Below are positions 2 through 33,388 of a stretch of DNA of 64,000 nt, piece after piece (within the stretch, counting starts at the first letter, position 1; every line of letters begins with the position of its first letter). The DNA lies in the NCBI GenBank assembly GCA_938002605.1, contig CALLAF010000017.1:62001-126000 (forward strand), read 5' to 3'. A model generated the notes under the pieces. The model worked only from the letters and a program-made list of their open reading frames with translations, ran no database searches and was not told the DNA's origin. Position numbers and translations under genes: made by a program. This DNA comes from an uncultured Paracoccaceae bacterium (GTDB lineage Bacteria; Pseudomonadota; Alphaproteobacteria; Rhodobacterales; Rhodobacteraceae).

Positions 2-688
2 CAGGGGCTCGCGATCAAGACAGCCGTCACACATTGGCGTAGCCTCAAGCCGCGCTGCATGGGCACGTTGATCTGGCAGCTCAATGATACATGGCCGGTC
101 TGTTCTTGGGCGTCACTGGATCATGGCGGTGATTGGAAGTTGATGCACCACATGGCGCGCGAATTCTATGCACCTGTGCTGGTTACAGCCGTGCCACTAG
201 ACGGGAACTATGTGATCCGCGCCGTCAACGATAGGCCGGACGCCTGCGATGTTACTGTCACTGTTTCGGCGGTTGATATGGCGGGTAACCTGCGCGCGTT
301 AGGCGCGGGTGGCGCGTCAGTCGAAACAACGGCAGTAGACGTGCTGACAATCGCGGGCGCTGATCTGCAGCCCGATGAAATGCTGCACTATGCGTGGGAA
401 ACCGCGAATGGCACGGCAGGCAGCGATATATTCGCGCCTAAACCTTACAAAGACTACAATCTGCAGGCACCGCACCTGACCCAAGTTATCTCGGGCAATA
501 CACTCACACTGACGGCGCAGACATTGGCATTGTTCGTTGCGGTCGAGGCCGATGTGCCCGGTCGCTTTGACCACAATGCGTTTACGCTTTTGCCCGGACA
601 AACAATGGTTGTGCAGTTTACACCAGCCAATCCTGCGGACAAACCCAACTTCACGCTGCGCGATTTGCACAGCGCAACCTACGCCTGA
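2..688 (+). CDS. beta-mannosidase (GH2 family), C-terminal part only
   Basis: Only the last 228 residues lie in the window; the reading frame is already open at base 2. The visible part starts in the end of the TIM-barrel domain (TAVTHWRSLKPRCMGTLIWQ, then LNDTWPVCSWASLDHGG) and continues with the beta-sandwich domains typical of GH2 beta-mannosidases. The enzyme removes terminal beta-mannose from oligosaccharides. The catalytic acid/base and nucleophile lie largely upstream and cannot be checked here. The next gene starts 15 bases later on the same strand, so it probably closes a sugar-degradation operon with the isomerase and oxidoreductase that follow. Confidence 0.85.
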   Translation, partial: QGLAIKTAVTHWRSLKPRCMGTLIWQLNDTWPVCSWASLDHGGDWKLMHHMAREFYAPVLVTAVPLDGNYVIRAVNDRPDACDVTVTVSAVDMAGNLRALGAGGASVETTAVDVLTIAGADLQPDEMLHYAWETANGTAGSDIFAPKPYKDYNLQAPHLTQVISGNTLTLTAQTLALFVAVEADVPGRFDHNAFTLLPGQTMVVQFTPANPADKPNFTLRDLHSATYA

Positions 689-703
689 TCAAGGAGAGAA
701 AAT

Positions 704-1450
704 ATGACCCAGATTTCCTACCAAGTCTACTGCTCACGGAATTTTCCTCCGTTGGGGGATACGCTGAAAATGCTCTCTGAGACCGGGTTCAAAGAGGTCG
801 AAGGTTTCGGTGGCCTTTTTGACGATCTCGATGGGCTAAAGGCGGGGCTTGACGCGACAGGCCTGAAAATGACCAGCAGTCACTTTGGGTTGGATATGGT
901 TGAGAGTGACGCATCAAAAGTGATCGCCATCGCAAAGGAATTGGGAATTCAAAAGGTCATCGTTCCTTTTTTGATGCCTGATGATCGCCCCACGGATGCC
1001 GCTGGTTGGGCCGCATTTGGGACGCGTTTGGCCAAGGCAGGTAAGCCGTTGCAAGATGCAGGTCTTACGTTCGGCTGGCACAATCATGACTTTGAGTTTG
1101 TTGCGACCGAAACCGGAGAGCTGCCACTAGATCTGATTGCGGCTGCATCCGACGATCTGATGCTAGAGCTTGATCTGGGTTGGGTTGCGCGCGCGGGTCT
1201 TGATCCGGTGGCATGGATCAAGAAATATGCGGGTCGCGTGACAGCGGCGCATATCAAAGACATTGCACCCGCAGGCGAAAACGCAGACGAAGATGGTTGG
1301 GCTGATGTCGGTCACGGTACCCAAGATTGGGCCACGATCCATACCGCGCTGCAAGAGGCGGGGGTAGATCACTATGTGGTCGAACACGATAACCCCAAAG
1401 ACCACGCGCGGTTTGCAAGCCGCAGCTTGGCTGCGATCCAGAAATTCTAG
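704..1450 (+). CDS. sugar phosphate isomerase/epimerase family TIM-barrel protein
   Basis: A 248-aa protein of the xylose-isomerase-like TIM-barrel superfamily (AP endonuclease 2 fold). Signs are the metal-ligand stretches around FGWHNHDFEF, the ELDLGWVARAG strand and AAHIKDIAP, which supply His/Glu/Asp ligands. A strong ribosome site (AAGGAGAG) lies just before the ATG. Members isomerise or epimerise sugars, keto-sugars or inositols; the exact substrate cannot be read from sequence. It sits between beta-mannosidase and a Gfo/Idh/MocA oxidoreductase, a pairing common in operons for oxidised sugar intermediates. Confidence 0.8.
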   Translation: MTQISYQVYCSRNFPPLGDTLKMLSETGFKEVEGFGGLFDDLDGLKAGLDATGLKMTSSHFGLDMVESDASKVIAIAKELGIQKVIVPFLMPDDRPTDAAGWAAFGTRLAKAGKPLQDAGLTFGWHNHDFEFVATETGELPLDLIAAASDDLMLELDLGWVARAGLDPVAWIKKYAGRVTAAHIKDIAPAGENADEDGWADVGHGTQDWATIHTALQEAGVDHYVVEHDNPKDHARFASRSLAAIQKF

Positions 1451-1461
1451 GAGGTTCTATC

Positions 1462-2583
1462 ATGACGAAACTTGGTGTTGGCATCATTGGATGCGGTAAT
1501 ATTTCGACCTCTTATCTTAAACTGGCTCCGCTGTTTAAATCGCTTGATGTTAAGGCGGTCGCAGATATCAACATGGACGCGGCCAAGGCACGGGCCGCAG
1601 AATTTGGCGTGCGCGCTGAAACTGTCGCTGACTTGCTCGCTGTGGATGACGTTGATGTAATCGTCAACTTGACCATTCCCGATGTGCATTTCGCGGTGAC
1701 AAAACAGATCATCGAAGCAGGCAAGCACGCCTATTCCGAAAAGCCATTGGTGTTGACCTTGGAAGAAGGCAAAGAATTGCGTGATTTAGCAGCCTCTAAG
1801 GGGCTGCGTATTGGGTCCGCGCCGGATACGTTTCTGGGTGGATCGCATCAGCTTGCACGCGCACAAATTGACGCGGGCAAGGTTGGGCGTATCATCGGCG
1901 GCACCTGTCACGTGATGGGCCACGGTATGGAAGCATGGCACCCGAACCCCGATTTTTTCTTCAAACCCGGCGGTGGTCCGGTGTTGGATATGGGCCCTTA
2001 TTACATCACTAATCTGATTCAATTGATCGGGCCAGTGAAATCGGTCACAGCGCTTGCGAAGTCAACATTTCCCACGCGCACCATCAGCAACGGGGCCCGC
2101 AATGGCGAAGTGCTGAAGGTGGAAACACCGACAGATATTCAAGCCTTGCTTGAATTTGAGAACGGTGCCGTCGTGACCCTAGGCGCAAGCTGGGATGTCT
2201 GGTCTCATCGCCATGACCACATGGAGTTATACGGTGAAAAAGGGTCTATCTTCCTTCCGGATCCGAACTTTTTTGGTGGCGACGTGGAAATCAGCGGCGA
2301 AGACAAAGACATCGTCACAGTTGCACCGTGGGACCACCCGTTTAGCGTGGTGAACTACGAAGAAATCCGTGCGAATTACCGATGTGCCGGGCTAGCTGAT
2401 ATGGCGACAGCCATCGCCGAAGATCGCCCGCATCGCTGTAATATCGACGTCGCGCTCCATGCGGTTGACGTGATGACCAGCATCTTGAAGGCGGGCGAAG
2501 AGCGCCGGTTTGTCGATATGACAACCACCTGCGAACGTCCCGCGGCCTTGTCGCCAGAAGAGGCGCGTGCGTTGCTGGCATAA
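1462..2583 (+). CDS. Gfo/Idh/MocA family NAD(P)-dependent oxidoreductase
   Basis: 373 aa, usual length for the family. The N-terminus has a Rossmann dinucleotide motif (GVGIIGCGNIS) and the EKPLVLTLEEGKEL segment whose Glu-Lys-Pro holds the catalytic lysine. The C-terminal alpha/beta domain contains GGGPVLDMGPYYI, including the conserved Asp. It probably oxidises or reduces a sugar or cyclitol at the expense of NAD(P). An AGGAGG ribosome site precedes the ATG and only 11 bases separate it from the isomerase gene, so the two are co-translated. The substrate remains unknown. Confidence 0.85.
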   Translation: MTKLGVGIIGCGNISTSYLKLAPLFKSLDVKAVADINMDAAKARAAEFGVRAETVADLLAVDDVDVIVNLTIPDVHFAVTKQIIEAGKHAYSEKPLVLTLEEGKELRDLAASKGLRIGSAPDTFLGGSHQLARAQIDAGKVGRIIGGTCHVMGHGMEAWHPNPDFFFKPGGGPVLDMGPYYITNLIQLIGPVKSVTALAKSTFPTRTISNGARNGEVLKVETPTDIQALLEFENGAVVTLGASWDVWSHRHDHMELYGEKGSIFLPDPNFFGGDVEISGEDKDIVTVAPWDHPFSVVNYEEIRANYRCAGLADMATAIAEDRPHRCNIDVALHAVDVMTSILKAGEERRFVDMTTTCERPAALSPEEARALLA

Positions 2584-2590
2584 GGAAATA

Positions 2591-2616
2591 CGCCTGCGCT
2601 ATTTTTGGCGCAGGTG
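2591..2616. terminator. hairpin after the sugar operon, possible terminator
   Basis: CCTGCGC (2593-2599) pairs with GCGCAGG (2608-2614), extendable by one G-T and one C-G pair; the loop is T-rich. It starts 8 bases after the oxidoreductase stop. No T-tract follows, so it may instead slow or block reading between the convergent genes. Confidence 0.45.
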
Positions 2617-2622
2617 CATCGG

Positions 2623-2799
2623 CTAGCCGGATGATGGTGCTGTTTGATGCGCCCGTTCCGTCAGGGTCGCTGCGCGCTGGCGCAAATCATTGCGCAGCGC
2701 GTCACGAACAATATTTCCAATAACAATTTCATTGCGCCCGGTCATATGTTCGAGCGCGTCATGAAGTTCCGGCGGTAAATCGATAACAAGATGTTTCAT
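2623..2799 (-). CDS. small ribbon-helix-helix-like protein (58 aa)
   Basis: A 58-aa open frame starting MKHLVIDLPPELHDALEHMT and ending QTAPSSG. The N-terminus has the alternating beta-strand pattern and following helices of Arc/CopG-type (ribbon-helix-helix) DNA-binding proteins such as FitA-like antitoxins. No toxin partner is adjacent: rlmN lies upstream on the same strand and the sugar operon converges from the other side. No clear Shine-Dalgarno sequence precedes the ATG. An 8-bp inverted repeat just upstream (2809-2837) could be its operator. The family call rests on the short N-terminal pattern only. Confidence 0.6.
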   Translation of the reverse strand: MKHLVIDLPPELHDALEHMTGRNEIVIGNIVRDALRNDLRQRAATLTERAHQTAPSSG

Positions 2800-2808
2800 G
2801 CGATATGC

Positions 2809-2837
2809 TTAACGAAACAGAATGAAAAATTCGTTAA
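2809..2837 (-). promoter_or_regulatory. perfect inverted repeat TTAACGAA-N13-TTCGTTAA
   Basis: TTAACGAA at 2809-2816 and TTCGTTAA at 2830-2837 are exact reverse complements. The right arm covers the rlmN stop codon and the left arm lies 10 bases before the ATG of the small ribbon-helix-helix-like gene. It may be an autoregulatory operator or an RNA hairpin; there is no T-tract for a terminator. Confidence 0.4.
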
Positions 2838-4012
2838 ACGCCGGCTTCTTTTGCGATTTCAGCGCGACTTTTTTGCGCCCGCTCTGTGGCTGATTTCAAC
2901 TGCCCGCAAGCAGCCATGATGTCTTCGCCGCGCGGTTTGCGTACGGGGGATGAATAGCCAGCATTATAGACGATGTCGGAAAACGCACGGATACGGTTAT
3001 TTGACGACCGTTTATAGGGCGCGCCGGGCCATTCGTTGAATGGGATTAGGTTGATCTTGGCCGGAATGCCTTTGATCAGTTCAACCAGCCGGTGCGCGTC
3101 CTCGTCGGAATCATTTACACCATCCAGCATCACATATTCAAATGTGATCCGTTCTGAATTCGAGGCTTTGGGGTAGACCCGCAGCGCATCGAGCAAATCC
3201 GCAATTGGCCAGCGTTTATTAATCGGGACCAGTTTATCGCGCACTTCATCCGTTGTGGCATGGAAAGATACCGCAAGCTGGCAACCTATTTCTTCGGCGG
3301 TACGGGCGATTTCGGGGACAACGCCGGATGTTGACAGGGTAATGCGACGGCGGGACAGGGCGATCCCTTCGGGATCAAGCGCGATCTTCATCGCGTCACG
3401 TACGTTTTCAAAATTATAGAGCGGTTCACCCATGCCCATCAGCACGATGTTTGAAAGCAGACGTGGCGCGGCTTCGTTACGGGCACCTTGTTCGGGCCAT
3501 TCGCCCAGATCATCGCGTGCCAACATGACTTGGCCAATAATTTCGCCTGCGGTCAGGTTGCGGACAAGTTTTTGCGTGCCTGTGTGGCAGAAAGAACAAG
3601 TTAACGTGCAACCAACTTGGCTTGAGATACACAGGGTGCCGCGGTCGGTTTCGGGGATATAGACGACTTCGACCTCGTGGCCACCCGCGATCCGCACGAG
3701 GTACTTGCGGGTGCCATCCTCAGATATTTGCCGGGTTACGACCTCGGGCAATTGAATGACGAAATTCTCGGCAAGCATTGCGCGATAGTCTTTGGACAGG
3801 TTGGTCATCTGATCAAAGTCGCGGACCCCCCAATGATAGAGCCATTGCCAAATTTGTCCCGCGCGCATCTTGGCTTGCTTTTCTTTGGTGCCGACGGCGA
3901 TCAAGGCATCGCGCAGGGCTGGGCGCGTCAGGCCGATCAGGTTCGGTAGACTATCAGGCAGTTTGCGCGGAATCGTCATAACGTCCTGGGTGATGGGGGC
4001 CTTGGCGTCCAT
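2834..4012 (-). CDS. rlmN: 23S rRNA (adenine2503-C2)-methyltransferase RlmN
   Basis: A 392-aa radical-SAM methylase that methylates C2 of A2503 in 23S rRNA and also A37 in some tRNAs. The radical-SAM cluster motif CxxxCxxC is at Cys135, Cys139 and Cys142 ([12 protein letters not shown]). The SAM-contact region [13 protein letters not shown] and the C-terminal conserved Cys in IMAACGQL are present. The N-terminus has the RlmN/Cfr helical accessory domain. It is transcribed leftward, separated by a terminator from the IalB-like gene upstream. Confidence 0.95.
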
Positions 4013-22625: not shown

Positions 22626-23249
22626 CTAGATTTCGTGCCAGCGGGTTGGCGTGTTTTCTTGCCATTTCTTGTCGTGCAAAAGAGGGGTGTCCGTATCAAA
22701 CGCGGCTTTGCCCAGACATAAATATCCGGTCAATTGCCAATGATCTGGCACGCCCAATGTCTGCGAAACCGCCTGTGGATCAAGGATGGAAACCCACCCA
22801 AGCCCTAGGTTTTCGGCCCGTGCCGCCAACCAAAGCGTATAGATCGCCGTAACGCTGGAATAGCACAGCATTTCAGGCATGGTTTGGCGGCCAAGGCCGC
22901 GCCCCTCGACAGGTTGGTTTTCTGTAAACACGGCCAAATGCACAGGCGCGTCGCGTAACCCGGCAAGTTTCAAGCCCGCGTAGGATGCACGTGTGTCATC
23001 ATCATAGATTTCGGCGGCTTCTGCGTTGGCTTTCTCAAAATTTGCGATGATTTTTGCGCGTAGGGCCGGGGTCGTTACATGCAGTACCCGCCACGGCCTT
23101 GCATTGCCCACAGATGGGGCCAGATCCATTGCGGCGCGCAATCGCGCGAGCACATCCTCAGGGACCGGTTCGGTACTAAAATGCCGGACATCCCGCCGCC
23201 ATTGCAAGACATCGTTCAGGGCGTCGCGGTGGGCTTGGGTCAGTTGCAT
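22626..23249 (-). CDS. bluB: 5,6-dimethylbenzimidazole synthase BluB
   Basis: 207 aa from the ATG at 23249, which shares one base with the stop of the gene upstream (TGATG), fixing the start by coupling. It is a nitroreductase-fold enzyme that cannibalises reduced FMN with O2 to make the lower ligand of B12. Matching segments are QWRRDVRHFSTEP, DLAPSVGNARPWRV and AARAENLGLGWVSILDP, with the Asp in the flavin-binding RRDVR segment and the Ser of the APSVGN segment. Placement in the cobalamin block supports this over a generic nitroreductase. Confidence 0.9.
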   Translation of the reverse strand: MQLTQAHRDALNDVLQWRRDVRHFSTEPVPEDVLARLRAAMDLAPSVGNARPWRVLHVTTPALRAKIIANFEKANAEAAEIYDDDTRASYAGLKLAGLRDAPVHLAVFTENQPVEGRGLGRQTMPEMLCYSSVTAIYTLWLAARAENLGLGWVSILDPQAVSQTLGVPDHWQLTGYLCLGKAAFDTDTPLLHDKKWQENTPTRWHEI

Positions 23250-23611
23250 CAGCCTTGCACCCATTTGTTGGCTTGGCTGGGCAGAAATGCTTCGACGGCG
23301 GCAGTCGCAATAACGGCTGTATCCCCCGTTTCAGGGTTGGGGACATTCATTCCGCCATGGACTGCCGACACGGTTGCGCGCCCTCGCGGCAGTTTGGCGA
23401 CCAGTGCAGCGGTGTCTATCTTGTCGGGTTCCTGCACGCCGATGGTGACTTGAACCCGCATGGCGTCGGTTTCTAGACCGATGCTTTGAAAAATGGGTAA
23501 AGTCGAATGGCGGATCGCGTCTTCGATCGCGCGAGCGGCGGCCTTTTGGTAATCCATCCCGTGTAGGTCATTTCCCATACCCATTTCGATAATCACACGT
23601 TGGTCTGTCAT
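23249..23611 (-). CDS. Lin0512 family protein, second of a tandem pair
   Basis: 120 aa, Lin0512-type conserved protein of unknown function. Features are the N-terminal IEMGMGNDLHGMDYQKAAAR segment, a Gln-x-Pro-Asp stretch (VQEPDKIDT) and VHGGMNV near the C-terminus. It overlaps its paralogue upstream by 4 bases (ATGA) and bluB downstream by one base, so the three genes form a tightly coupled unit. The link to bluB suggests a cofactor-related task, but this is context only. Confidence 0.75.
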   Translation of the reverse strand: MTDQRVIIEMGMGNDLHGMDYQKAAARAIEDAIRHSTLPIFQSIGLETDAMRVQVTIGVQEPDKIDTAALVAKLPRGRATVSAVHGGMNVPNPETGDTAVIATAAVEAFLPSQANKWVQG

Positions 23612-23952
23612 CTGGGCACCATATCAAAGCTGACGTTAATCGCGACGTTGGCAATCACAGTTGGGTTGCCATCAGGGCGCGCAATATCAAGCCCGCCTTT
23701 GGTGACATTGATCGTCGGTTGCCCATAGGGAAAGATATCTAACAGAGCGTTGGTATCCACCCGGTCGGGCGCTTGCACGGCGATCTGGACGTCGATCAAC
23801 ATTGCCTCTTTCGGAAAACCAAATAGTTCCGCCATATTGATTGAGTTATGCCAAAGTGCGTCTTGCAGACCACGCCGCGCCGCTTGGGTATAGTCTTGGC
23901 GGCGCAGGCTGGTGCCCATACCAAATTCAGTTAGCACACGGTGGATTGGCAT
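23608..23952 (-). CDS. Lin0512 family protein, first of a tandem pair
   Basis: 114 aa, paralogous to the following gene: TEFGMGTSLRRQDYTQAARR, VQAPDRVDT and VTKGGLDI align with IEMGMGNDLHGMDYQKAAAR, VQEPDKIDT and VHGGMNV. Both have the same compact alpha/beta length and no signal peptide or metal motif. Two divergent copies in one operon suggest a heteromeric assembly. Function unknown. Confidence 0.75.
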   Translation of the reverse strand: MPIHRVLTEFGMGTSLRRQDYTQAARRGLQDALWHNSINMAELFGFPKEAMLIDVQIAVQAPDRVDTNALLDIFPYGQPTINVTKGGLDIARPDGNPTVIANVAINVSFDMVPR

Positions 23953-24760: not shown

Positions 24761-25369
24761 TTAAAATTCCACGCCGATTTGCGCTTTGATCCCTGATCGG
24801 AACGGGTGTTTAACCAGTTCCATTTCCGTCACAAGGTCAGCCATTTCGATCAAGTCTTCGTGGGCGTTGCGGCCCGTGAGCACGACATGGGTCATTGGTG
24901 GCTTATGATCACGCAAGAATGCCACAACCTCTTCGGCGCTGACATAGTCATAGCGGATGGCGATGTTGATTTCATCCAAGAGCACCATGTGATTGGTTTC
25001 GTCCACGATGAGCTCTTTGGCCTTGGCCCAAGCGGCCTGCGCCATTTCGGTGTCGCGTGATTTGTCTTGGGTTTCCCAAGTAAACCCTTCGCCCATTGTG
25101 TGGAACGCGCAGGTGTCCGAAAACTTGGCTAAGATCAGATCGCGTTCTCCGGTGGACATGCCCCCCTTGATGAACTGTACGACCGCGCATTTCATGTCAT
25201 GTGCAATGCAGCGAAAAATCATGCCAAACGCGGCAGAGGATTTGCCCTTACCCTTGCCCGTGTGCACGATGACCAAACCCTTTTGATCAGTCTTTGTGGC
25301 CATGATTTTGTCGCGGGCGACTTTTTTCTTGGCCATTTTCATTGCGTGACGGTCGGTGTCTTCGGTCAT
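24761..25369 (-). CDS. cobO: cob(I)yrinic acid a,c-diamide adenosyltransferase
   Basis: 202 aa of the CobA/CobO/BtuR family. The P-loop variant HTGKGKGKSSAAFGM lies near residues 36-50, and DEINIAIRYDYV and VVLTGRNAHEDLI are typical. It transfers the adenosyl group of ATP to Co(I) corrinoids. An AGGAG site ahead of the ATG supports the start. The Lys-rich N-terminus before the P-loop is normal. It is the last biosynthetic gene of the riboswitch-led leftward block. Confidence 0.93.
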   Translation of the reverse strand: MTEDTDRHAMKMAKKKVARDKIMATKTDQKGLVIVHTGKGKGKSSAAFGMIFRCIAHDMKCAVVQFIKGGMSTGERDLILAKFSDTCAFHTMGEGFTWETQDKSRDTEMAQAAWAKAKELIVDETNHMVLLDEINIAIRYDYVSAEEVVAFLRDHKPPMTHVVLTGRNAHEDLIEMADLVTEMELVKHPFRSGIKAQIGVEF

Positions 25370-25443
25370 TGCGGGCTCCTCTTTTGAAAAGACAGTACCC
25401 GCATGACGACGGGCGGTACAGAGCGTACCGCCCGGTTTTGTTT

Positions 25444-26658
25444 TTATTCAGCCGGAACCATTGGCTGGCTTTCGACCCGGCCAAAGTGCCGACGGTTCAG
25501 GTATAGCACCAGTCCAACCATCGCGAATTGGAACATCAGTGCTGCCGCACTAAGTACCCAGAAAGCAGTGCCAAACTTTACGATCAAACCAGTTGCGACA
25601 AGCCCTTTGTTGATCCAAAAGTGCATCATCACAGAGAGCGCAACGCCGGGACAAACCAACGCGTAAGAACCCGGTGAATTGCCTTCCCCGCGCAAGAACG
25701 CATCAGCGTAGCCTTGGCGACGCAGGACAATCAGCCCCATCAGCGCAAAGGCAAATTGCACGGCAAGAATTTTTGTCAGCAGCACGAGTGTCTCGGCGTT
25801 CGTGACATGAACGTCAAATGTTGTGTGCAGCCCGTGGTTTTGACGTAGCATCATAATGCCAAGTACGGTCAATAACGGTACGACAACCATCAATGTTGGT
25901 CCGCTTTCTTTGGCGGTGCCAAAGTGCAGCATTGAATTGAACGCGGTGATTGCAGCGATTGCAGCATAAAGTGCGGCAACCGTGCCCATGGCGGTCGAAA
26001 GAACAAGGCTTGTCCCAACGGTTAGGGGAACCTGGCTCATCGCGGCGGGCGAAGAAAGGCCAACGGCGACCATCGCAAGCGCAAAGGCAGGCAGAAGTTG
26101 TGCAAAAGAGTTATGCGCAGTGACGTCAAAAATGCCGCCTTCGGACAAGATACGTCCCAAGAAGCGACCAATCTGGGCCAGCGCCAAGGTGCCGATAGCC
26201 GCAAAGGCCAGCAATGCCATAGGGAACATATACTCAACCGCGCCCCATAGGGATGGAACAAAGACGAGGCCCAGAATGAAGCCAACGTTTACGGTCATCG
26301 CCAAGGCAAACGGCATGGCGAGAAGCTGGGTTTCTGCATTTGTTTCGCACAGCTTTGCGTAGCTTTCGGTCTTTTTGAACTGTGACAGTTGGGACAGGTT
26401 CCAGATCAACGATTTGATGTTCAAAAATGCGAAACCCGCGATCCCGGTGACGGCCACTAAAATCGCGACCTTCATACCAGCGCTGCCAGCAGACCAAGCG
26501 CGCAAGATGTCTTCAAAGACGGGTACGGGTTGGCCTGGGTGCGGCACCCAGAACATCAAGTACATAAAAAACGTGACGGCTAACCCGCCCGCGCCGAGCG
26601 AGGCTAGAAAGTAAAGTGGCGAATAGCTGTCCGCCGGACGTGCATTTTGATGTGCCAT
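25444..26658 (-). CDS. polytopic membrane protein, TsoY-like
   Basis: 404 aa from the ATG at 26658 (GGAG site before it) with about ten hydrophobic segments spread over the whole length, e.g. VTFFMYLMFWVPH, VAILVAVTGIAGFAFLN, MALLAFAAIGTLALAQ. It starts MAHQNARPADSYSPLYFLAS, which I associate with TsoY-family (seleno)proteins, loosely reminiscent of TehA/SLAC1-type channels; this assignment is from memory and moderate. No selenocysteine is evident. It sits between cobN and cobO but has two palindromic sites in front of it, so it probably has its own control. Confidence 0.6.
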   Translation of the reverse strand: MAHQNARPADSYSPLYFLASLGAGGLAVTFFMYLMFWVPHPGQPVPVFEDILRAWSAGSAGMKVAILVAVTGIAGFAFLNIKSLIWNLSQLSQFKKTESYAKLCETNAETQLLAMPFALAMTVNVGFILGLVFVPSLWGAVEYMFPMALLAFAAIGTLALAQIGRFLGRILSEGGIFDVTAHNSFAQLLPAFALAMVAVGLSSPAAMSQVPLTVGTSLVLSTAMGTVAALYAAIAAITAFNSMLHFGTAKESGPTLMVVVPLLTVLGIMMLRQNHGLHTTFDVHVTNAETLVLLTKILAVQFAFALMGLIVLRRQGYADAFLRGEGNSPGSYALVCPGVALSVMMHFWINKGLVATGLIVKFGTAFWVLSAAALMFQFAMVGLVLYLNRRHFGRVESQPMVPAE

Positions 26659-26674: not shown

Positions 26675-26698
26675 ATACATTTCAAATATGGAATGTAT
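26675..26698 (-). promoter_or_regulatory. palindromic operator, proximal copy
   Basis: ATACATT (26675-26681) and AATGTAT (26692-26698) form a near-perfect 24-bp palindrome whose centre is TTCAAATATGG. It lies 17-40 bases before the membrane-protein start. A second copy of the same sequence starts 44 bases farther upstream. Size and AT-rich symmetry suit a winged-helix dimer such as an ArsR-family repressor. Confidence 0.6.
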
Positions 26699-26717
26699 TA
26701 GAGGTGACTCATTCCGC

Positions 26718-26743
26718 AATACATGTCAAGTATGAAATGTATT
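26718..26743 (-). promoter_or_regulatory. palindromic operator, distal copy
   Basis: AATACAT (26718-26724) and ATGTATT (26737-26743) bracket GTCAAGTATGAA. Aligned with the proximal copy it gives the consensus ATACATnTCAArTATGrAAT then GTAT. The site overlaps the stop codon of cobN. The centre-to-centre distance of about 44 bases is close to four helical turns, allowing two dimers on the same face. Confidence 0.6.
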
Positions 26744-29700
26744 AAGGGGCCTCATCTATAACCGCAGCAATCCGTGCGCGCGCGGAATTGGATTTGGGGT
26801 GCCAAAGTTCACGGTCGATTGCCTCTTGCAGGCGCTGCGCAATCTCACGCAGGGCCGGGGCGTTTGCATCAGCAATAAATGAACGCGTATCATCATCGTT
26901 GATGAACGCGTCCTCGACCAGATCAAAGTGGTGGTTTTGAACGGCCCCTGTGGTCGCGGCAAAGGCAAACAGATAATCCACCGTTGCCGCGATTTCGAAC
27001 GCGCCTTTGTAACCGTGGCGTTTGACCCCATCGATCCATTTGGGGTTTACCACGCGGCTGCGCACAACCCTCCCGATTTCATCGTCGAGCGTTCGAATCA
27101 CCGGGCGCTCCGGGCGCGAATGATCGTTGTGATAGATGGGCCGGTCTTGGCCCTGCAATGTGCTGATTGCAGCAGCGGCCCCACCTTCGAATTGATAATA
27201 GTCGTCGCTATCTAGGATGTCGTGCTCGCGGTTGTCTTGGTTTTGGACTGTGGCCTCGACCTGAGATAGCCGGGTTTCAAAGGCGGCACGGTCTTTGCGC
27301 CCGTCTTCACCGGCGCCGTAGGCATAGCTGCCCCATTCAAGGTAGGCTTCTGCAAAGTCGGATTTATCGGCCCAGATGCGTTCGTCAATCAAGGCCTGTA
27401 GCCCGGCCCCATAAGCACCGGGTTTTGATCCAAAGACGCGGGCTTGAGTGTCACCTGTTTTGGCGCGGGCAGCTGCGGGGTTGACGTCGGCGGGTTCATC
27501 AAGTGCCTGTACGGCCCGCGCGGCGCTGTCGACAAGTGCGATCAATTGCGGGAAAGCGTCACGGAAAAAACCAGAGATGCGCAACGTGACATCGACACGC
27601 GGACGCCCGAGGATGGATTGGGGCAGGATTTCAAACCCTGTAACGCGGCGGTTGGCGCTGTCCCATTTGGGCTTTACCCCCATAAGGGCCAAAGCCTGTG
27701 CGATATCATCGCCGCCGGTGCGCATATTGGCCGTGCCCCATGCCGTCACCAGCAGGCTGCGCGGCCAATCGCCGTGGTCTTGCAGATGTTTTTCAATCAG
27801 CAGGCTTGCGGATTTCCAGCCAAGTGCCCAAGCGGTTGGGGTCGGGACGGCCCGGCTATCCACACTATAGAAATTGCGCCCAGTTGGCAGCACATCTAAA
27901 CGTCCTCGGGTTGGCGCACCCGACGGGCCCGGGGCGACGAAGTGCCCCGAGAGGGCGCTGAGGAGCCCCGCCCCTTCGGCAGGGCCGCAGCCCTGGATGG
28001 TGGGCAAGATGGAACCCAAAATTTCATCTAGAACGGCTTGTGCCGCTCGCGGGGTGAACCCCGCATCGCCCCACCCGCCGTCCCGCAGCCCGCGCTGGCA
28101 CAATGATTCGAGCCGTTCCACCGTGTCGCCATTTGTTCGCCATGCATCATCATTCATGAGCGCAGGCGGTTTGACTGTCGCCAGTGCGCCTAAGTCGCAA
28201 TCTAGCGGGTCGATATTAAGGCTTAGGTCATCGGCAAGCGCGCGCAACAGCGAGGCGTTCTTGCCCACCCCGTCTCCGCGTGGCACCCTTGCCAGGGCAA
28301 TCGCCAGATCGCGTTCTTGTTGCCCTGTGGGTGATTGCCCAAAGATGTGGAGCCCATCGCGAATTTGCGCTTCTTTGAGGTCACACAGGTAGGCATCTAG
28401 CTTGCCCAGATCACCGTCGCTGTCCCCTGTAAACCCGGCATCCTTTGACAGGCCTGTAACCTCGGAAAGTGATAGGATTTCTTTGCGCAGATGGGTGATG
28501 CGGCGCGGATCGACGCCTGCGGCCTCGTAGTATTCATCGACCAAAGCTTCGAGATCGCGCATGGGTCCATAGCTTTCGGCCCGCGTCAGCGGCGGTGTCA
28601 GATGGTCGATAATGACGGCAGATGTGCGCCGTTTGGCTTGCGTTCCTTCACCCGGGTCGTTGACGATAAATGGGTAGATGTGGGGCGTGGGTCCAAAGAC
28701 GGCTTCGGGCCAGCAGGTTTCGGATAGGGCAACAGCTTTCCCGGGGAGCCATTCGAGGTTTCCGTGTTTGCCCATATGCACGATGGCATCCGCGCCCCAG
28801 TGGTTGCGCAACCAAAAATAGAAGGCGAGGTAGTTATGGGGCGGAACGAGATCGGGAGAATGGAATGTTTCGGTGGGGTCGATATTATACCCCCGTGCCG
28901 GCTGAAGACCAACGACTGCACTGCCATAGCGATGGATTGAAAGGGCAAAGCCCTTTTGCGCCTCCGGCGGGAGTATTTTTCGCGATGTGATGAAGGGGTC
29001 GTCTGCAGGTTGCCCCCAGCGCGATGTGATTTGGTCCTTTATCTCCCACGGCAGCGCGTCAAAATATTGCCGGTAGATGTCGAGCGGCAGGAATTCACCG
29101 CCCTCTTTGTCGGCCCGATCTGTCAACCAGTTGGTTGGTCCCAGCATGATGGTTTGCATCATTGCAGCGCTATCGGCGGGTGGTGTGACCTGATGCCCGG
29201 ATGATTTGAGCAGGTTCAGCACATGTACCGTGGCGGCGGGCGTATCGAGCCCGACCCCATTGGCCAGCCGCCCGTCTTTGTTGGGGTAGTTGGCGAGGAT
29301 CAGGGCCGTTTTTTGCTCTGCGGGTTTGGTACGGCGCAGGTTTGCCCAATTGCGCGCAAGTTGGCTGGTGAAATCAATGCGGTCGCCTAGGGCTTGGTAG
29401 GATGCGATGGGGCATTGGGTGGCGTCATCAAAGAAGGCTTCGCCTTTAAAGCTGACAGCGCGGGACAAGATGCGCCCGTCAACTTCGGGGAGGGCCACGT
29501 TCATGGCAATGTCGCGTGCTGTCAGCCCGTGCAAACCGTCTCGCCATGAGGCTTCGTCTGCGCCCGAAAGGATCACCTGAAAGACCGGCGCATGGTTGGC
29601 AAGTAGTGGGTTTGTAGGGCTGTCGTCACCGTCATGGGGGCTGCCCACGGCGAACGCTGTACAGTTTAAGATGACATCTGGCGGGTGGGCCGCGAACAGT

Positions 29701-30452
29701 TGATCCAACGTGGCGCGGCTGATCGGGTCTTTGAGCGAGGCCACGAAGATCGGCAAAGGGTTCAACCCTGCGCGCATGAGGCTGCGGGTGAGCCTGTTGA
29801 TTGGGTTCAGCCCGCCGCCTTGGACAAGTGCGCGATAGAAGATGATCGGCACGATTGGCGCGTCCGTCGTCCAATCGGCTTGCGCGGCCGCGCTATCGGC
29901 GATTCCGGCACCGGGCCAATAGACCCCTGCGCGTAACAATGGGCTGGCGGCGGCGGGTTTTTCTGACCCGTCTAACATCGCGCGCGCATAGCTCAGTAGG
30001 TTGCCGCTGTTTTGCGGGCCGCCTTCGACAAAATACGACCAAAGCGCGTCGTAATCGGTGCCCGAGACCGTCGAGAGTTCGCGTAACTCTTGATCGGGTT
30101 TGTCGTCGCCGGGCAGGGCGACAAAAGGGATGCCCGCATCATGCAAACGTGCCGCGTATTGCGTTAGCCCGTATTTCCAATAGCCTGCGCCGCCCAAAAT
30201 GCGTGCGATCACGAGCCGCGATTTCGTTGCGCAATCGTCAAGATGCAGATCCACCGACATCGGGTGTTGCAGGTGCATCATATTCGCTAATCGCAGGCTC
30301 GGTGGATTGTCCATTAGTGCGCGTGCTTCGGATAATGCAGCCAATTCGGTATCTGCGGCTGAGATGATCACCACATCAGCAGGGGTTTGGCCAAGATCGA
30401 CAGGTTCAGATCCGTCAGAGATTGCCCCCGGTGTCGCCGCTAGAAGGTGCAT
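26742..30452 (-). CDS. cobN: cobaltochelatase subunit CobN
   Basis: 1236 aa, the expected size for the large subunit of the aerobic, ATP-dependent cobalt chelatase (CobNST). It inserts Co(II) into hydrogenobyrinic acid a,c-diamide. Recognisable CobN/BchH-type blocks include WGANAIVHMGKHGNLEW-like HWGADAIVHMGKHGNLEWLP, YPNKDGRLANGVGLDTPAAT and the C-terminal YHNDHSRPERPVIRTLDDEI and WIDGVKRHGYKGAFEIAATV. CobS and CobT are not in the window. It starts 205 bases after the GNAT gene; a small rightward gene occupies that gap. Confidence 0.95.
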   Translation of the reverse strand: MHLLAATPGAISDGSEPVDLGQTPADVVIISAADTELAALSEARALMDNPPSLRLANMMHLQHPMSVDLHLDDCATKSRLVIARILGGAGYWKYGLTQYAARLHDAGIPFVALPGDDKPDQELRELSTVSGTDYDALWSYFVEGGPQNSGNLLSYARAMLDGSEKPAAASPLLRAGVYWPGAGIADSAAAQADWTTDAPIVPIIFYRALVQGGGLNPINRLTRSLMRAGLNPLPIFVASLKDPISRATLDQLFAAHPPDVILNCTAFAVGSPHDGDDSPTNPLLANHAPVFQVILSGADEASWRDGLHGLTARDIAMNVALPEVDGRILSRAVSFKGEAFFDDATQCPIASYQALGDRIDFTSQLARNWANLRRTKPAEQKTALILANYPNKDGRLANGVGLDTPAATVHVLNLLKSSGHQVTPPADSAAMMQTIMLGPTNWLTDRADKEGGEFLPLDIYRQYFDALPWEIKDQITSRWGQPADDPFITSRKILPPEAQKGFALSIHRYGSAVVGLQPARGYNIDPTETFHSPDLVPPHNYLAFYFWLRNHWGADAIVHMGKHGNLEWLPGKAVALSETCWPEAVFGPTPHIYPFIVNDPGEGTQAKRRTSAVIIDHLTPPLTRAESYGPMRDLEALVDEYYEAAGVDPRRITHLRKEILSLSEVTGLSKDAGFTGDSDGDLGKLDAYLCDLKEAQIRDGLHIFGQSPTGQQERDLAIALARVPRGDGVGKNASLLRALADDLSLNIDPLDCDLGALATVKPPALMNDDAWRTNGDTVERLESLCQRGLRDGGWGDAGFTPRAAQAVLDEILGSILPTIQGCGPAEGAGLLSALSGHFVAPGPSGAPTRGRLDVLPTGRNFYSVDSRAVPTPTAWALGWKSASLLIEKHLQDHGDWPRSLLVTAWGTANMRTGGDDIAQALALMGVKPKWDSANRRVTGFEILPQSILGRPRVDVTLRISGFFRDAFPQLIALVDSAARAVQALDEPADVNPAAARAKTGDTQARVFGSKPGAYGAGLQALIDERIWADKSDFAEAYLEWGSYAYGAGEDGRKDRAAFETRLSQVEATVQNQDNREHDILDSDDYYQFEGGAAAAISTLQGQDRPIYHNDHSRPERPVIRTLDDEIGRVVRSRVVNPKWIDGVKRHGYKGAFEIAATVDYLFAFAATTGAVQNHHFDLVEDAFINDDDTRSFIADANAPALREIAQRLQEAIDRELWHPKSNSARARIAAVIDEAP

Positions 30453-32938: not shown

Positions 32939-32984
32939 AGTTCTATCCTTGCTTTGCCGTCATCCCCGACGGCCGTTACGATAT

Positions 32985-33162
32985 GATGCAAGGCTGGTCT
33001 CCTGGCTTGCGGGTCGATGCGTCTTGCTGCCTTCCCGGGTTTCCCCAGTGGCGTTGTAACAAGACACTCTCCGCATACAGTCGCGGGGGCGGCTGTGGCA
33101 TGGGGTCTCCGGTTCGGATCGACCTTTCCACATTCCCATTTCATCCCCAGATGCTTGGCATC
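32985..33162 (-). promoter_or_regulatory. cobalamin riboswitch
   Basis: On the minus strand the core elements appear in order: GCCACAGCCGCCCCCGCGAC, TGTATGCGG, GCCACTGGG, CCGGGAAGGC and the B12 box AGCCAGGAGACC (33007-32996). The ends pair as P1: GATGCCAAGC (from 33162) with GCCTTGCATC (to 32985). It ends 46 bases before the CbiM-like start. It should lower expression of the cobalt import, CobW and CobN genes when adenosylcobalamin is plentiful. Confidence 0.95.
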
Positions 33163-33388
33163 AACGGGGAACCGTGCCCTATGTATGTGCGCTGGTGGAC
33201 CCGGTTACGTCAAGGCAGAATGCGACATTTGGCGGTCGTTGCGCGCCGTTCGGGGTGTTGTATCTCATGTGGGCGCAATATCTTGTGGATAAGTCGTGCG
33301 ATGTTGGCACATCCTGCGTCTGCATCGTTGACAGGTCGCGTGTCGGGCGCTCATGGTTTTGATATAAAGGAATCACAGGGATTGCCCT

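Follow-up and report, generated by a model that had tools for sequence, protein, structure and literature searches.

The window, the 64,000-nucleotide stretch of DNA analyzed here, carries on its minus strand a run of cob genes headed by a cobalamin riboswitch (32975-33191), which is not part of the operators described below. In this Roseobacter-group genome, tsoY (25444-26658, ATG at 26658) sits between two members of the run and encodes a 404-residue membrane protein of the TsoY family. Its upstream neighbor is cobN, for a cobaltochelatase subunit (26742-30452), and its downstream neighbor is cobO, for a corrinoid adenosyltransferase (24761-25369), both on the same strand. A strong hairpin, CGGGCGGTACAGAGCGTACCGCCCG, lies between tsoY and cobO (25410-25434), with a T-rich tail on the plus strand, and may be a terminator or an attenuator. 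Two adjoining Lin0512-family genes (PF09585) occur beyond cobO, at 23249-23952.

Paired palindromes upstream of tsoY

Two 24-bp palindromes, read directly from the minus strand, precede tsoY as putative operators: a proximal, imperfect one, ATACATTTCAAATATGGAATGTAT (26675-26698), and a distal one, ATACATGTCAAGTATGAAATGTAT (26719-26742). Their 20-bp cores, ACATTCCATATTTGAAATGT and ACATTTCATACTTGACATGT, span -38 to -19 and -82 to -63, respectively, relative to the tsoY ATG. Taken as 26-mers, the sites are direct repeats, 88% identical and 44 bp apart from start to start. The 20-nt consensus from an earlier note on this DNA matches both without a mismatch, where 0.00 such matches are expected from 100 dinucleotide shuffles, and the proximal site matches it on the opposite strand also, with three mismatches. 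Extended by GTAT, the consensus is confined to these two positions across all 3.0 Mb of the genome when up to three mismatches are allowed. That note had described near-identical palindromes 44 bases apart, directly upstream of the membrane protein gene, one of them overlapping the cobN stop codon. All of this is borne out, with no such pair in 100 shuffles and with a single base, 26742, common to the distal site and the stop codon (26742-26744). It had further put the inner sequence within one or two mismatches of ATTC-N8-GAAT, the site deduced for RcSqrR (PMC9774250), which is correct for the proximal core (one mismatch) but not for the distal core (three). The proximal site has counterparts in G222, G213, G230, and G236. 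Some relatives carry a complete FNR box at the point where the distal palindrome's right half opens with TTGACATGTATTGC.

Conservation of the palindromes

A family-wide draw gave a tsoY match in 54 of 198 genomes; the match in G008 (37% over 64 aa) was treated as spurious. Within the genus, 12 of 56 genomes have tsoY. The closest named relatives, Yoonia sp. I 8.24 (98% TsoY identity) and Loktanella sp. D2R18 (96%), point to Yoonia as the probable genus. Promoters were surveyed as the 130 bp before tsoY in the best 80 of 182 relatives, taken from named genome contigs, with dinucleotide shuffles and 3462 windows from other parts of those loci serving as controls. In counts that are not independent, because the 80 loci are related, the pattern ACATTYCAN4TGRAATGT is matched in at least 12 of 16 positions by 52 of these 80 promoters, a level that about 12 of the 3462 controls (~0.35%) and 2.8% of shuffles reach. 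The exact RcSqrR core, ATTC-N8-GAAT, occurs in 53 of the best 80 of 182, against 2 of 3462 controls. Two sites at 12/16 or better are present in 29 of the 80 promoters, spaced by 23-26 bp in 20 cases and by 41-46 bp in 9. Nineteen of the 28 promoters that fall below 12/16 still match 10 of the 12 positions of ACATTC-N8-GAATGT. Among the twelve same-genus promoters, 11 have the palindrome in at least 9 of those 12 positions, the sole exception being G245. The earlier note had named comparison of the intergenic sequence across relatives as a check on its reading; the palindromes are conserved, so nothing from that side speaks against it. Clustering the neighbors of tsoY in 40 loci gained little; the ORF caller chose wrong-strand frames in GC-rich loci.

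A sulfide-sensor-type ArsR gene with the same site

A search of the same genome with PF01022 gave 13 matches at E <= 0.01, eight of them above the cut-off. The proposed binder, encoded on the minus strand of contig 33 (G000:C33:3768-4079, identical to L104:3768-4079), is an ArsR protein of the SqrR/BigR class. It is recognized as an ArsR-type winged helix by PF01022 (39.1 bits, cut-off 22) and by NF033788 (79.6 bits, cut-off 55). Its best match among PDB sequences is 13ct/6o8l (5.3e-22), which we take to be SqrR of Rhodobacter capsulatus, followed by BigR, 3pqj (5.2e-18). Both sensor cysteines are kept, as RILC and VYEVFC align with IMC and VYEQFC of 13ct/6o8l; their equivalence to Cys42 and Cys108 of BigR can be drawn from PMC10451225 and PMC5823870. 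Because the score to the NCBIfam BigR model NF040642, 79.7 bits, is under the cut-off of 155, we describe the protein as BigR/SqrR-like rather than as BigR.

The contig 33 arsR gene is divergent from genes that match Sulf_transp (YeeE), DUF6691, and BLH_phosphatase. Between arsR and this operon, at L104:4107-4126, lies ACATTCCAATATTGAAATGC, near-identical to the window sites, so the scan of the host genome for further sites that the earlier note had suggested did find one, before an ArsR gene of the expected class. A repressor's own site before its own gene is the usual sign of autoregulation. Within the genus, an orthologue of this arsR is present in 48 of 56 genomes, and all 34 loci examined of the 48 found have a palindrome with at least 14 of 16 positions matched, mostly near -46, against 0 of 607 control windows. 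The operator is mostly ACATTTCAATRTTGRAATGT. In L280 and L287, arsR diverges from an MBL gene for which NCBIfam gives the dioxygenase half of Blh as the best match; that of L280 scores 402.7 bits, under the two-domain Blh cut-off of 625. The note's idea of a repressor dedicated to tsoY alone was rejected, since the site also precedes arsR itself and, in two relatives, cydA.

Within the genus, genomes with tsoY do not have this ArsR significantly more often than those without it (12 of 12 against 36 of 44, p=0.18). For the wider ArsR class across the family the figures are 53 of 53 and 115 of 145 (p=6e-5, uncorrected for phylogeny). A second, SqrR/SoxR-like subgroup, with the helix ARQAAVSQQL or near it, accounts for 15 of 30 top-hit loci and for 20 of 20 in another set. 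Seven of those 20 (L147, L148, L154, L155, L157, L163, L165) have AAATTC-N8-GAATTT at 1.7-2.5 kb upstream of arsR, perhaps the operator of this other subgroup, and no ACATTC-type site was found near arsR in the 20 loci examined. In genomes with the SqrR/SoxR-like subgroup, the tsoY site may serve a different protein, and its reader is less certain.

Further sites and their sulfur context

Scanning the host genome with ACATTCCAN4TGGAATGT, up to three mismatches allowed, gave 12 sites against 2 for the reversed pattern used as control. Two are at tsoY, one is at arsR, and nine are elsewhere. Five of these nine were inspected; four fall within ORFs and one between ORFs, with no evident sulfur gene, and all five looked like chance matches. 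The others are C2:25630, C2:13634, C47:859, and C50:7354. Twelve same-genus genomes, scanned with at most one mismatch, have 31 sites against none for the reversed pattern: by position, 14 at tsoY, 12 at arsR, 2 at cydA (G198 and G212), and 3 elsewhere, one of them at G230:C2:3490539.

A scan of 18 chosen tsoY genomes with ACATTC-N8-GAATGT, at most one mismatch allowed, gave 138 places against 12 for the reversed pattern. Fifteen non-tsoY sites from other genomes were picked by eye among the matches listed, for being A/T-rich or for lying close to an ArsR or sulfur gene, and are for that reason no census. Five of the 15 precede a rhodanese gene that diverges from uvrA (G086, G096, G053, G095, G181), one precedes a BLH-flavoprotein fusion (G086), two have a match to an SQR-III-like flavoprotein some 240-320 bp downstream (G096, G126), and one precedes a 5'-nucleotidase/metallophosphoesterase-domain gene in G005, presumably SoxB-like. 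For six of the 15, no evident sulfur gene was seen. An ArsR-type palindrome between uvrA and a divergent single-domain rhodanese gene is a feature of five genomes (loci L169, L170, L171, L176, L178).

The surroundings of tsoY in relatives also include sulfur genes. In G198, G212, and G210, tsoY is downstream of a Blh-type dioxygenase gene and a peroxiredoxin gene, and in G198, G212, and G245 the cydDCAB genes are close to it. Cytochrome bd is reported to sustain sulfide-resistant respiration in Escherichia coli (PMC4815019). A SQR-III-like flavoprotein gene is near tsoY in L337, L338, L339, and L342; two of these were scored by NCBIfam, L338 at 195.5 bits and the truncated L342 at 99.4, both under the cut-off of 525.

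In the host genome, a Crp-type regulator, a small ORF, a Blh-type MBL dioxygenase, and a BLH-flavoprotein fusion are encoded in a row at L294 (G000:C15), positions 476-3849. The sequence GTGACATTGTCAC, of form 5-3-5, is found there at 1164, after the crp gene. No palindrome above 12/16 was found at the dioxygenase and BLH-flavoprotein genes, and the one at that level is 590 bp away. Sequences of the type GTGAC-N3-GTCAC precede tsoY in several loci without the ArsR palindrome (L006, L008, L010, L191, and, in looser form, L009), and in one of the best 80 of 182 named promoters, in the looser form. Crp homologues (57-59%) are encoded near tsoY in L036 and L040. A Crp-type protein is a possible second sulfide regulator.

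The TsoY protein

The window protein scores 503.2 bits to the TsoY family model NF047644 (cut-off 150) and 58.7 bits to the selenoprotein TsoY model NF047643, below its cut-off of 250. Its Cys336, in a CxxV motif, belongs to a Cys336-Pro337-x-Val339 sequence that is invariant in 52 aligned TsoY homologues. Because selenoprotein TsoY is listed with a UxxV motif in a review (PMC13188914), Cys336 is probably the selenocysteine position of some family members. Among the papers listed for TsoY, the one found relevant names it in a table, in a passage that gives it no function.

An AlphaFold2 model of TsoY (mean pLDDT 85, pTM 0.84) has ten long helices. Of the first 16 rows returned by Foldseek for this model, all at probability 1.00, ten are named TehA or SLAC1; the best E-value is 3.5e-3, so that none reaches E <= 0.001, with TMt up to 0.74 and TMq up to 0.59. 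We take the match 4ycr to be TehA and five 9m7 entries ('At S1/S3' trimers) to be plant S-type channels. The matches to SLAC1 and TehA are ~11-15% identical to TsoY. The SLAC1 model PF03595 gives no match to window TsoY at the Pfam cut-off; at E <= 10 it matches 5 of 52 TsoY homologues, the best at 9.8e-5, while the unrelated Jagunal family matches 6 of 52, the best at 0.026. A TsoY profile run against PDB sequences returned nothing at E <= 10. TsoY is predicted to have a SLAC1/TehA-like fold and to work like such proteins, a claim that does not extend to membership in the SLAC1/TDT family. A SLAC1 motif is present in Ssu1, the sulfite pump of yeast (PMC6765260), and among the products of the bigR operon is a sulfite transporter related to TauE (PMC5823870). 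Combined with the predicted fold, these suggest as a best guess that TsoY is a putative sulfide-inducible anion exporter, perhaps for sulfite.

FNR boxes and promoter geometry

Many tsoY promoters contain a box of the FnrL/FNR kind, TTGAT-N4-ATCAA. An exact box, TTGAYN4RTCAA, occurs in 17 of the best 80 of 182 promoters, against 2 of 3462 controls. Ten of the 17 start 11 bp into a palindrome (12-15 of 16 positions), so that one half-site, the right one of the distal operator, doubles as the left half of the FNR box. In L224 and L225, the box instead starts 18 bp before the palindrome. In L201, L226, and L258, an exact FNR box, TTGACATGTATCAA, takes in the distal palindrome's right half, and a second palindrome follows 46 bp further. 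The window differs in that its sequence at this place, TTGACATGTATTGC, fails to match the right half, leaving the box incomplete. The cydA genes of G198 and G212 have an exact FNR box (respectively TTGACATAGATCAA and TTGATCTAGATCAA) together with the ArsR palindrome.

In a Dinoroseobacter study (PMC5398030), a position 41.5 bp before the transcription start is described as almost optimal for FNR sites. By this distance, transcription of tsoY in the window would start near -23, with the proximal operator over roughly -15 to +5. BigR, with its two cysteines, reportedly acts on the -10 region (PMC5823870). The promoter scan of the window did no better than shuffles (2 hits against a mean of 1.8), so it is the FNR distance rule that carries this geometry.

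Discussion

The reading that best accounts for these observations, to which we assign a probability of about 0.86, is that the palindromes are putative operators of the organism's own SqrR/BigR-class ArsR, with sulfide-relieved repression of tsoY, a predicted anion mover. The same site stands before the organism's own sulfide-sensor-type gene, which places TsoY, to judge from sequence comparison, probably in hydrogen-sulfide defense rather than in the making of vitamin B12. The conserved sites, the arsR site, and the sulfur neighborhoods support the sulfur-related ArsR reading that the earlier note had offered, at the level of comparative genomics. Its separation of the membrane protein gene from B12 control stands in part: tsoY has its own conserved regulatory region, and the separation as such is only partly shown.

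Those computed features and the fold prediction lead us to infer repressor binding, a persulfide response, the promoter geometry, and transport as follows. Reduced ArsR dimers on both sites would obstruct transcription from the tsoY promoter, since the expected -10/+1 region lies under the proximal site and the place of an FNR-type activator box in some relatives under the distal one. As sulfide rises, persulfides would modify the two conserved ArsR cysteines and the repressor would leave the DNA. TsoY would then be made together with the YeeE/DUF6691/BLH sulfur operon at the repressor's own locus; where relatives have an FNR box, either fused with the operator or next to it, low oxygen would be a further requirement. 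TsoY itself would move an anion from sulfide detoxification, most simply sulfite. A bolder version sees TsoY as an unrecognized arm of sulfide defense, a sulfide-induced anion exporter of SLAC1/TehA fold with a redox-active cysteine or selenocysteine, whose promoter would use overlapping sites to answer to sulfide by way of ArsR and, in many relatives, to low oxygen by way of FNR. We put this forward tentatively, at somewhat less than even odds, with sulfite, hydrosulfide, or a selenium analogue as possible substrates.

Long AT-rich palindromes of the form ATACAT...ATGTAT also serve other repressor families, and the sites could belong to another repressor, for example of TetR or MarR type, that shares a half-site with the ArsR operator. 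Against this stand the recurrence of the same palindrome, mostly near -46, at every one of the 34 same-genus arsR loci examined and the fact that most other placed same-genus matches are at tsoY or cydA; we regard such a repressor as very unlikely. Placement among cob genes, with cobN in 33 and cobO in 35 of the best 80 of 182 tsoY loci (2.5-kb flanks, some ended by the contig), would suit a plain cobalamin-operon gene whose palindromes have nothing to do with its function. These counts make the placement common but not obligatory, and the palindrome also precedes tsoY in loci where it is not in the cob operon and has dioxygenase, peroxiredoxin, and cyd genes as neighbors. On these loci we rejected tsoY as a plain cob gene, a reading to which we give hardly any weight.

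A narrower alternative keeps the proximal site as the one live repressor operator and sees in the window's distal palindrome chiefly the relic of an activator site of FNR type. The exact FNR box in the distal right half of L201, L226, and L258, corresponding to TTGACATGTATTGC in the window, speaks for such a relic. The distal 20-bp core, however, is identical in the two closest relatives, L187 and L188, and matches at 15/16 in L198 and L199. Since the core holds although the FNR right half in these relatives is also off consensus, conservation seems to favor the palindrome over the FNR box. All four are very close relatives, which makes core conservation a weak argument. We consider the relic unlikely and prefer two ArsR operators.

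The proposed system resembles that of R. capsulatus SqrR in the ArsR class of the regulator, its two sensor cysteines, the near-matching operator core, and the sulfur genes nearby. It differs in the recognition helix, SQSYVSGQL here and TRQAAVSQQL in SqrR, as well as in the operator. Resemblance to the bigR operon of Xylella and Agrobacterium, which comprises BigR, Blh (DUF442-ETHE1), and a TauE-related sulfite transporter, lies in an ArsR repressor encoded beside BLH/ETHE1-type and membrane sulfur genes, in a palindrome placed so as possibly to block RNA polymerase, and in a candidate for membrane transport that the same site would control. Here, however, the BLH and MBL domains are on separate genes, the MBL gene of the window genome being on another contig, TsoY takes the place of TauE as the extra target, and the ArsR protein scores well under the BigR cut-off. 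TsoY is like the SLAC1/TehA (TDT) channels, Ssu1 included, in its ten long helices and leading Foldseek matches, but differs in its low identity, the lack of a Pfam match, and its invariant Cys-Pro-x-Val. Open-license literature on TsoY and on BigR regulons, each taken separately, contained no link between TsoY and SqrR/BigR among the matches listed.

TsoY, a named (seleno)protein family, would on this comparative evidence now be placed in a BigR/SqrR-type regulon. Its occurrence beside genes for Blh-type dioxygenase, cytochrome bd, and SQR-like proteins, together with its probable anion-channel fold, makes it a testable component of the sulfide-stress response in marine bacteria. Overlapping FNR and ArsR sites would be a compact joining of oxygen and sulfide signals.
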